A DNA stretch of 22,041 nt from a virus, in IMG/VR virus record IMGVR_UViG_3300001834_000094, positions 1 through 22,041 of that record, one strand, 5' to 3'. Positions 13,190 to 15,780 of the stretch are shown here, in pieces. The position numbers and the translations under genes were made by a program. The notes under the pieces were generated by a model. It made no database searches and was not told the DNA's origin. It saw only the letters and a program-made list of their open reading frames with translations. Within the stretch, counting starts at the first letter, position 1. The number at the start of each line of letters is the position of its first letter.

Positions 13190-13621
13190 ATGAACGAGCA
13201 CAGCTTTATACGAAGCATACATAACGCTCTGCCACCCGATGTCTACAAGTGGAAAATTCACGACACATATACGGGAGGGGTACCTGACGCCATGTATGCA
13301 GGTCCCGCAGGCGTGCTGTTCGTTGAATACAAATATATAAAAACGCTACCAAAACGTGACAAATCTGTCATCCGACACTCCTTAACTAGTTTACAACTAG
13401 CCTGGTTAAACAGGATGAAATGTTCAACATCTGTCGCATTGATATTAGGAAACGCGAGATCTTCACTAATAATAGTAGATGACTTTTCAGCTAATATATG
13501 TAAATCTAAGTATGTAGAACAAAGTATTCCACGAAAGCAGGTAGCTGACTGGATTTACCACATTACACACTCAGGACGAGCAAATGAAGAAAGCATCCGA
13601 ACTCCCCCCGGCGGTAAATAA
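13190..13621 (+). CDS. VRR-NUC-type PD-(D/E)XK endonuclease
   Basis: I start this 143-residue protein at ATG 13190, not at the upstream TTG, because the latter falls within a repeated hairpin. The motif pattern is YTGGVPDAMY (27-36, D33), then VLFVEYKYIK (42-51, with E46 and K48 as the E-x-K pair), then SLQLAWLNRM (67-76). This is the VRR-NUC arrangement, a family of structure-specific nucleases including Holliday junction resolvases. It probably cuts branched intermediates of phage replication. The final 38 bases overlap the repressor-like gene. Confidence 0.82.
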   Translation: MNEHSFIRSIHNALPPDVYKWKIHDTYTGGVPDAMYAGPAGVLFVEYKYIKTLPKRDKSVIRHSLTSLQLAWLNRMKCSTSVALILGNARSSLIIVDDFSANICKSKYVEQSIPRKQVADWIYHITHSGRANEESIRTPPGGK

Positions 13622-14159
13622 CCTCCGCAAAATATGGGAGCAAAAGAAAGCCGAAATGAAGTTCACGCAGGTAAAAGCGGCAAAAGAACTAGACTGGACA
13701 CAAGGCGCAATCTCTCACTACCTCAACGGCATTACTGAACTAGGCCCCGCAGCAGTCATTAAGTTTGCCAACTTCTTAGGCGTAGACCCCCTCGATATCG
13801 ACCCAAAAGTTATTGCCCATTTACCTAACACTCAGGCGATTAAAATCACGTACTCAACAGCAAACTTCAACAAAACCATTGACGAAACTTACTACCACAC
13901 AAAGATAAAATCATCGGTTACGTGCATTGTCGATCCAGAGACATTGCTTTTTTTACCAGGCTTTAAAAAAGGTATGCAATTTTGTAAACCTGGCGAAACC
14001 AGCTTGGTACATATGTGTAACTTAGATGAAGCACCGGATTCATCATATTTTCTCGTACAACTAAAAGGTGAAAACCAAGCCAATTTCTACCACCACGATG
14101 TCTTGCCGCCAAAAGCTAAAACGAAAAAGATTATGGCAATTATCTTCGTACCTGGTTAA
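13584..14159 (+). CDS. HTH (XRE-type) regulator, candidate phage repressor
   Basis: A 191-residue protein, started at ATG 13584 with AGGA upstream, inside the end of the nuclease gene. Residues about 12-70 form an XRE/Cro-type helix-turn-helix, with the helices FTQVKAAKEL and QGAISHYLNG. The C-terminal half (about 85-191) resembles a dimerisation domain, but I see no serine/lysine pair typical of LexA or CI autocleavage. It lies beside the excisionase-like gene and integrase, so it may control lysogeny. Being at the end of the replication operon, on the same strand, is unusual for a classical CI. A replication-region activator is another possibility. Confidence 0.7.
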   Translation: MKKASELPPAVNNLRKIWEQKKAEMKFTQVKAAKELDWTQGAISHYLNGITELGPAAVIKFANFLGVDPLDIDPKVIAHLPNTQAIKITYSTANFNKTIDETYYHTKIKSSVTCIVDPETLLFLPGFKKGMQFCKPGETSLVHMCNLDEAPDSSYFLVQLKGENQANFYHHDVLPPKAKTKKIMAIIFVPG

Positions 14160-14238: not shown

Positions 14239-14448
14239 TTGCTGGAATCCATCCTATTAGAGAAATACGGCCCGTTCATGGATCTCGAAGAGTTAGCCGA
14301 TCTATTAAGAATCAAGAAACAGTCGATGTATCAGCAGATATATCGCGGTCAACTAGACGTACCTCATGTGCGCCGTGGCAAGAAATATCTTTTTCCGACA
14401 CAGGAAGTTGCGAACTACTTCAACGACCAGCTAAATCGCCCGGTTTAA
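14239..14448 (+). CDS. Excisionase-like small HTH protein
   Basis: A 69-residue protein with probable start TTG 14239, eleven bases after AAGGAG (14222-14227); a stop at 14221 excludes a longer form. The next in-frame ATG (codon 14) would leave only the HTH. Residues 14-65 (MDLEELADLLRIKKQSMYQQ onward, then RGKKYLFPTQEVANYFND) match the MerR/AlpA-like HTH_17 fold of many phage excisionases. It lies next to the integrase gene and overlaps its 3' end by 29 bases in convergent orientation. It probably sets recombination direction. An unused strong AGGAGGTG at 14191 precedes it. Confidence 0.72.
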   Translation: MLESILLEKYGPFMDLEELADLLRIKKQSMYQQIYRGQLDVPHVRRGKKYLFPTQEVANYFNDQLNRPV

Positions 14449-15418
14449 GATTCACGTAACGAGCTAGTTCTGAAAATGTGCGGTGCCCAGAAACAAGCCG
14501 CACTTCTTCAATCTTAAAACCATCTTCAAACAGCCGCGATATTGCTTCATGGCGAAGGTCGTGGAAGCGTAAATCCTCGATATCCAATTTCTTACACATT
14601 CGAGCAAAACGGTCGGAAATGCTGGCTGCGTGCTTTACATGAAACAGCACATCACCCTCGCCAAAAGAATTATGTGCACGTAGAAGCGCGTCTCTCACGC
14701 GCCCTAATATGGGAATTTGCTGTGCAGACTTGCCCCCTTCAACCATCTTATCTTTACGATTCAAATGTATTACGCCCTTGTCCCACTTTACATCTGACCA
14801 CCGAAGCGCGTGTATTTCTCCCTGACGCATAGCTGTATTGATCGCCAAATCAATAGCAACCCCAATCCAATGGTTACCGGCTTCCTTGTACAGCGCTTCA
14901 AGCTCCCAATCTTCTGGTCGACGGTCTCTGCGGGCAGACTCAGAGATTTGTCTCAACCGAACAAGTTCTTTGATTGCAAGATCGATTGTCTTCTCTGACA
15001 CCTGCACACGCGACACATCAACCGCTTGCTTTAAGTAGTAAAGCTGCTCTCTTAGCGTGCTGGGTTTTACTGTTTTACGTCGATAGGCAGCAAACTCAAG
15101 TACGTCATCAACTGTCAAATCATGGATCGAAACGCCTTTCCACCATTTAGACATCTGATCTAAGTTGCTCATCTTCGAGCGAGAAAAGGCTAATTCAAAC
15201 CGACCGTAGTAAGCGACCAAGTGATCGATGATGTCGTTGATAGCCGTGAGATGCTGACCGGAGGTATCGATCCACGTACCGTGGTCCATTTGTGTTTCTA
15301 CAGAGCGTGCCCAGGCGGCTGCAGCTGCTTTTGTTTTGAATGTTTTTCTTTCGGGTGAATACCCTTTACGGCGAACCTCTGTGAACCAGCCGCCATTCCT
15401 TTGCCTAATAGAAGCCAT
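14420..15418 (-). CDS. int: Tyrosine recombinase / phage integrase
   Basis: A 332-residue integrase. The N-terminal arm-binding part is MASIRQRNGGWFTEVRRKG with FKTKAAAAAWARSVE. A SAM-like core-binding domain follows at about 58-150. Catalytic residues visible are R198 (TAMRQGE), H286 and R289 in the HDLRHEA segment, H312 (SGHRTF) and the nucleophile Y321 (LARYVNL). A tRNA-Asp-like attachment core lies 70 bp upstream of its start, so it should insert the phage into a tRNA-Asp gene. Two tandem TGCGTCAT sites sit directly before the start codon and may be regulatory. The catalytic set is complete. Confidence 0.95.
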   Translation of the reverse strand: MASIRQRNGGWFTEVRRKGYSPERKTFKTKAAAAAWARSVETQMDHGTWIDTSGQHLTAINDIIDHLVAYYGRFELAFSRSKMSNLDQMSKWWKGVSIHDLTVDDVLEFAAYRRKTVKPSTLREQLYYLKQAVDVSRVQVSEKTIDLAIKELVRLRQISESARRDRRPEDWELEALYKEAGNHWIGVAIDLAINTAMRQGEIHALRWSDVKWDKGVIHLNRKDKMVEGGKSAQQIPILGRVRDALLRAHNSFGEGDVLFHVKHAASISDRFARMCKKLDIEDLRFHDLRHEAISRLFEDGFKIEEVRLVSGHRTFSELARYVNLKPGDLAGR

Positions 15419-15437
15419 TGCGTCATCCGTGCGTCAT
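15419..15437. repeat. Tandem TGCGTCAT sites at the integrase start
   Basis: TGCGTCAT occurs at 15419-15426 and 15430-15437, 11 bp apart, about one helical turn. They fill the leader directly upstream of the integrase ATG. A symmetric version, TGCGTCA-A-TGACGCA, occurs at 15637-15651. The pattern suggests a binding site for the phage repressor or excisionase. Confidence 0.45.
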
Positions 15438-15486
15438 TGGCTTCTATTCTAAAATAATTTTCTTTAAAAACATACACTTAGAGAAA

Positions 15487-15507
15487 TGGCGGAGCGGACG
15501 GGACTCG
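15487..15507 (-). other. attP: attP core matching the 3' end of tRNA-Asp
   Basis: Read on the minus strand, these 21 bases equal the final T-loop/T-stem, acceptor strand and CCA of a bacterial tRNA-Asp. The order is CGAGT, CCCGT, then CCGCTCC, the discriminator G and CCA. Identity stops before the TT of the T-loop. Many integrases use a tRNA 3' end as attachment site, and the integrase is adjacent. Confidence 0.82.
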
Positions 15508-15615
15508 GGTTTTTGAAAAGCTATTTTTGCTTCTATATCAATAAGTTATGCTCAATTTCCCTCTTTTTACCCCTCTTATGAGCGGGCTTCTAACTTACTG
15601 ATTTTGCTACTTAAT

Positions 15616-15780
15616 TTATTTTTCATTAATTTCAATTGCGTCAATGACGCAGTTGTTTTCGAGTCCTGTATCGGGACTCGAAATCCGAGTAACACTACGA
15701 TTCTGACCTAATTTTAGGTCTTCAATAGCAATAGCAGACAGCAATACAATCGCGAATGCGAGCGTATACGTGGTGAACAT
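15616..15780 (-). CDS. 54-aa putative exported peptide
   Basis: A small frame on the minus strand, started at 15780 with AGAGGA six bases upstream. A likely promoter is placed just before it. The N-terminus (MFTTYTLAFAIVLLSAIAIE) is a strong hydrophobic segment, either a signal peptide or a membrane anchor. The rest is polar with one cysteine. The coding stretch also contains a 10-bp hairpin (15657-15683) and the palindrome at 15637-15651, which could be coincidental. No family is recognised. Its place beside attP, apart from the tail genes, would fit a lysogenic-conversion or membrane peptide, but that is inference. Confidence 0.45.
   Translation of the reverse strand: MFTTYTLAFAIVLLSAIAIEDLKLGQNRSVTRISSPDTGLENNCVIDAIEINEK

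Follow-up and report, generated by a model that had tools for sequence, protein, structure and literature searches.

A predicted lambda-type attachment site with a tRNA-Asp core in an uncultured phage, and a candidate arm-site code in its integrase family

Results

The DNA analysed here (the window, G000) is a linear virus record of 22,041 bases, taken in its entirety. Its genes run from a replication module (MoxR-like ATPase, DUF2201, DNA polymerase A, a DUF5906 protein, a PD-(D/E)XK nuclease and an SNF2 helicase) through an HTH repressor, an excisionase-like protein and an integrase to a tail module on the other strand. The features of the integrase region are as follows.

13584-14159, + strand: probable lysogeny repressor (HTH_3)
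14239-14448, + strand: probable excisionase (HTH_17), encoded opposite int and overlapping its 3' end; beside int in almost all relatives
14420-15418, - strand: tyrosine integrase (int), 332 aa (PF00589 and PHROG integrase; alignment, AF2, Foldseek)
15419-15425, - strand: P' arm-type site TGACGCA, 11 bp farther from the core than the next site, abutting the int start codon
15430-15436, - strand: core-proximal P' arm-type site TGACGCA
15468-15480, + strand: H'-like site AAACATACACTTA, 7/9, at +6 on the int side just beyond the core; offset kept in most relatives, with a weaker consensus match
15487-15507, - strand: attP core CGAGTCCCGTCCGCTCCGCCA, equal to the last 21 bases of tRNA-Asp(GTC), from T-loop to CCA
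15536-15548, + strand: IHF-like site TATCAATAAGTTA, 9/9, at -62 from the core end and in opposite orientation to the next; offset kept in 17 of 21 attP regions
15591-15603, - strand: IHF-like site AATCAGTAAGTTA, 8/9 of WATCAANNNNTTR, at -117 from the core end; offset of 116-117 in 19 of 21 attP regions
15637-15651, inverted pair: P arm, arm-type pair TGCGTCA-T-TGACGCA (TGCGTCATTGACGCA), 158 bp from the core end; 157-159 bp in the clade, with co-varying sequence

The integrase has all the catalytic residues of its class in the alignment (R198, H286, R289, H312 and Y321). Its AF2 model (pLDDT 89.6) begins with strands at residues 2-7, 10-15 and 23-27 and a helix at 30-46, and Foldseek matched it to full-length lambda Int and to the Tn1549 integrase. 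The protein carries two marks of the lambda-type (heterobivalent) integrases: the catalytic R, H, R, H, Y set and, in the model, an N-terminal arm-binding domain.

The core reads TGGCGGAGCGGACGGGACTCG on the + strand and CGAGTCCCGTCCGCTCCGCCA on the - strand (15507-15487), and is adjoined by CCATTTCTCTAAGTG on the int side and by CTTTTCAAAAACCCGAG on the P side. The initial annotation had described a 21-base identity to the 3' end of a tRNA-Asp, which proved exact, and had placed it 70 bp upstream of int; the upstream position is right, with the CCA pointing toward the gene, and the gap between CCA and the int ATG is 68 bp. Complete tRNAs that end in this 21-mer were always tRNA-Asp(gtc) in viral contigs and bacterial genomes alike (ARAGORN), and 38 of 143 sampled gammaproteobacterial genomes contain it with G or A at position 4. 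When the window was scored against 111 distinct tRNA 3' 21-mers, the core reached 21/21, and no other place did better than 17/21; the maximum over 60 dinucleotide shuffles was 18/21. The GC content of the 21-mer is 76%, that of the surrounding intergenic region 39%. ARAGORN and Rfam found no tRNA gene within the 22,041 bases, and a generic tRNA 3'-end pattern with GTTCGANTC had no match in the window because the identity of the core begins only after GTT. As in tRNA-targeting attP sites, the core is a tRNA 3' end finishing at CCA that stands beside an integrase gene, with phage DNA on both sides.

The surroundings of the core have two hallmarks of lambda-type sites, in that predicted, repeated arm-type sites flank the core and predicted IHF-consensus sites lie at fixed offsets within attP. 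The direct repeat of the P' arm with its 11-bp spacing is present in 113 of 147 relatives (other spacings occur at 1-14 loci), and most of the clade has the inverted repeat of the P arm at a distance of 157-159 bp ahead of the core end. The arm motif varies from phage to phage yet matches between the two arms of a single phage: the longest word common to both arms averages 8.9, a value reached in 0 of 20,000 permutations, against 6.85 after permutation. As judged from these predicted sites, the arrangement of arm, IHF-like and core sites is that of a lambda-type attP and is conserved among the relatives of the integrase. A simple scan saw no sigma-70 promoter in the attP region.

Two further repeats were noted in this region. 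A perfect 10-bp inverted repeat, AATAGAAGCC / GGCTTCTATT (15407-15416 and 15439-15448), surrounds the P' arm sites and overlaps the int start. It was considered as the arm site and rejected, as it is shared with only one relative (L002) whereas TGACGCA fits the family-wide pattern; it may be a site for a regulator or for the excisionase. An inverted repeat TTTCGAGTCC-GGACTCGAAA at 15657-15683 adjoins the P arm, and its CGGGACTCG recurs in the core; this repeat is not clearly retained in L002.

Together these features lead us to assign 15407-15651 to a temperate phage as its attP, at which the tyrosine integrase encoded at 14420-15418 would join the 21-bp core by recombination to the 3' end of a host tRNA-Asp(GTC) gene, a reading to which we give a probability of about 0.94. 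It is strongly supported by the position and orientation of the core, by the conserved arms, by parallel sites in relatives and by a distant lineage that uses tRNA-Asp (see below), and insertion at tRNA-Asp is accordingly what is predicted for this phage, as the initial annotation had proposed.

The parallel sites are found among viral relatives with integrases of at least about 37% identity, nearly all of which have a tRNA 3' end upstream of int with its CCA toward the gene, mostly 68-93 bp from the int start codon. In L002, whose integrase is 90% identical, the core carries a single change (CGAATCCC...), its distance of 68 bp from int is kept along with the arms, and the remaining intergenic region has diverged. 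The fixed distance and orientation relative to int among relatives, the arms on both sides and the presence, upstream of related integrases, of Ser, Glu or Cys ends in place of this core leave scarcely any room for the idea that the tRNA piece has another role, as a tRNA-like decoy or captured fragment, even though the 21-mer also occurs in many other viral contigs at places where no tRNA is called. Eleven such contigs (L003, L021, L028, L029, L039, L044, L046, L053, L065, L068 and L080) have CAAGTT-like sequence before the 21-mer and TTTTTCTC-like sequence after it, and are likely to show att sites of another integrase type that uses tRNA-Asp.

Integrated copies were sought in bacterial genomes, a check that the initial annotation had suggested in the form of tRNA-Asp genes with this phage adjacent. 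Close relatives yielded none: a single-sequence integrase search found no relatives in GTDB contigs, an alignment search of GTDB contigs gave a best integrase match of only 36-37%, and a direct integrase search of 369 sampled gammaproteobacterial genomes (E<=1e-40) gave no integrated close relative but four matches of 33-37% identity, three of them beside tRNA-Met or tRNA-Arg. More distant integrases (28-35%) in bacterial genomes lie directly downstream of intact tRNA genes for Arg, Asn, Met, Ala, Val, Glu, Lys and others. In a lineage of 32% identity, one contig (G400) shows int next to an intact tRNA-Asp that precedes it and, 61 kb away at the other end, a P arm and core that give way to other DNA. 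A second contig (L293) with a closely related integrase has an undivided attP whose halves resemble the G400 junctions. For this distant member of the family, attP, attL and attR at tRNA-Asp are all visible across the two sequences.

The failure to find integrated close relatives in GTDB or in the 369 genomes would also be expected if the site were a vestige of past integration at tRNA-Asp in a phage that is now lytic or replicates as an episome, and two relatives (L107 and L108) show no int between their replication and tail genes. The integrase of the window is nevertheless full length with every catalytic residue in place, the arms and IHF-like sites are undamaged, stand at their fixed offsets and are retained in L002, and sparse sampling of hosts would account for the missing lysogens. 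We consider a vestigial site improbable. As to L107 and L108 themselves, the lack of an integrase match between the two modules possibly marks them as lytic relatives, or else reflects a gap in detection.

The form of the window was weighed in a similar way. Among the relatives identified through its DNA polymerase (47-69% identity) there are contigs of 57-61 kb, and the window is a fragment of a genome of roughly that size. The order of replication module, repressor, xis, int, attP and tail module, together with the presence of both arms, implies that the copy in the window is not integrated, in line with the initial annotation, which had taken the site for attP rather than attL or attR on the strength of phage genes on both sides. 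Its further statement that the sequence is a free phage form fits these data, with the qualification that the window is only a linear fragment of the ~57-61 kb genome. A linear fragment might instead span the internal, attP-like junction of tandem prophages, or be misassembled. Against this, the same gene order recurs in many independent contigs, some of them 57-61 kb long, and one contig of 61,091 bp (G017) has the same int region near both its ends, and the spacing of ~57.7 kb between the two copies is what a circular or permuted genome would produce; a tandem or misassembled origin thus has little to recommend it. In one subclade (L105, L106, L109, L114, L120-L123 and L245) the whole attP-int-xis block is inverted relative to the repressor and tail genes, so that int follows the repressor and xis faces the tail genes.

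The choice of tRNA differs among the relatives. Their commonest core is AATCCCTCTCTCTCCGCCA with its variants, and such ends belong to tRNA-Ser in gammaproteobacterial genomes. The Asp core is found in the window, in L002 and, at 32% identity, in L293 and L297, and L124 (38%) has a variant of it, so that L002 is the only high-identity relative to have it. In the IQ-TREE phylogeny, the branch of the window and L002 lies within a clade of 14 other integrases, all with a Ser core (support 98/98), and well-supported branches of the tree force three label changes for Asp. The Ser and Asp ends have AATCCC or AGTCCC, and CTCCGCCA, in common. The simplest reading of the tree and the cores is a switch of target from tRNA-Ser to tRNA-Asp on the branch leading to the window and L002, brought about by a change of core. 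The initial annotation had held that relatives integrated elsewhere would speak against tRNA-Asp as the target. Such relatives exist, in the more distant phages with tRNA-Ser cores, but their attP cores differ to match, which points to target switching rather than to refutation. That the integrase still targets tRNA-Ser, with the Asp-like core as a tolerated variant, could be argued from these clade neighbours and from the partial likeness of the two ends. It is very hard to reconcile with the exact 21-base match to tRNA-Asp and the nearly identical core of L002, and insertion at tRNA-Ser would be expected to mispair the acceptor stem and damage the tRNA.

The arm-type sites differ among relatives in a way that follows the integrase. 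Where the 11-bp repeat could be detected (113 loci), its word mostly takes the form TGNNNCA and tracks integrase residues 12, 14 and 16, which alternate along strand 2 of the AF2 model or stand at its end. H12/Q14 goes with TGGCACA, Q12/Q14 mostly with TGTCACA, F or Y12/E14 with TGACGCA and Q12/K14 with TGGGACA, and K16 goes with C at base 7. By mutual information, residue 16 is paired with base 7, residue 14 with bases 4 and 5, and residue 12 with base 3, alongside some pairs that are likely to reflect ancestry. The idea was drawn from the viral clade and then compared with loci in bacterial genomes. Among pairs with at most 40% catalytic-domain identity, the variable bases were identical in 59% of those with the same residue triplet and in 7% of the others, although these pairs are non-independent and the test rests mainly on virus-genome pairs; seven control triplets gave 3-14%. 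The 12/14/16 set ranks 7th of 18,110 triplets, and residue 12 is in all of the top ten. Only seven distant genome-genome pairs share a triplet and one of these agrees, which is too few and lends the code no support. Several sites occur within the R12/Q14 class, so that the code must involve more than these three residues. On balance we lean towards a general code in which residues 12, 14 and 16 of the arm-binding domain would specify bases 3, 4-5 and 7 of TGNNNCA, and in which arm specificity evolves fast and apart from the choice of tRNA. A role for integrase residues 17 and 19 in arm-site differences was proposed earlier from four mycobacteriophages (Pope et al., 2011; PMC3203893); a family-wide correspondence between residues and arm sites was not found in the open-access literature searched.

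Discussion

Our analysis suggests how the phage of the window would insert. The N-terminal domain of Int may bind the TGACGCA arm sites while IHF bends the DNA at the three IHF-like sites, and the catalytic domains (R198, H286, R289, H312, Y321) would then exchange strands inside the core. The tRNA 3' end borne by the phage would make the tRNA-Asp gene complete again, with int immediately downstream of it, and excision would employ the neighbouring HTH_17 protein. Int probably represses its own gene, since the P' arm sites reach right up to the start codon of that gene.

The attP itself adds one more example to an already known type of site, and no paper that brings together a tyrosine integrase, an attP and tRNA-Asp was found in the literature searched. 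It does provide a concrete prediction of the insertion site for an uncultured phage group, in which one integrase lineage appears to have gone from serine to aspartate tRNA genes with the other geometry of attP retained. The correspondence between residues and bases spans ~110 integrases and, if binding is confirmed, would allow attP arms to be predicted from protein sequence and arm specificity to be tested by design in integrase tools. For specialists, this target switch and the candidate arm-site code are most worth following.

The closest comparison is with lambda Int (1z1b, 1z1g, 5j0n), with which the window shares the integrase fold, the catalytic residues, and arm and IHF-like sites on both sides of the core. 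Unlike lambda, its core is a tRNA 3' end, its integrase is only ~16% identical to lambda Int, its P arm consists of one inverted pair and its P' arm of one direct pair with 11-bp spacing. The three strands and one helix modelled at the N-terminus, followed by core-binding and catalytic domains, also place the protein alongside the tyrosine recombinases with arm-binding domains (PMC8138268). The KplE1 prophage, with intS at argW (PMC2951348), resembles the window in its tRNA core, in the P' arm sites between core and int, in the integrase promoter region lying within the att site and in the separate transcription of integrase and excisionase. It differs in its tRNA and arm sequence, and integrase self-repression, demonstrated for KplE1 intS (PMC2951348), is proposed for the window by inference. 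The cluster K mycobacteriophages (PMC3203893) likewise have a tmRNA or tRNA core 5' of int and paired arm sites, and, as in the family of the window, their arm sequence differs between close relatives along with N-terminal residues (17 and 19 in their case), whereas their hosts are mycobacterial, their 11-bp arm repeats are arranged otherwise and four phages were compared.
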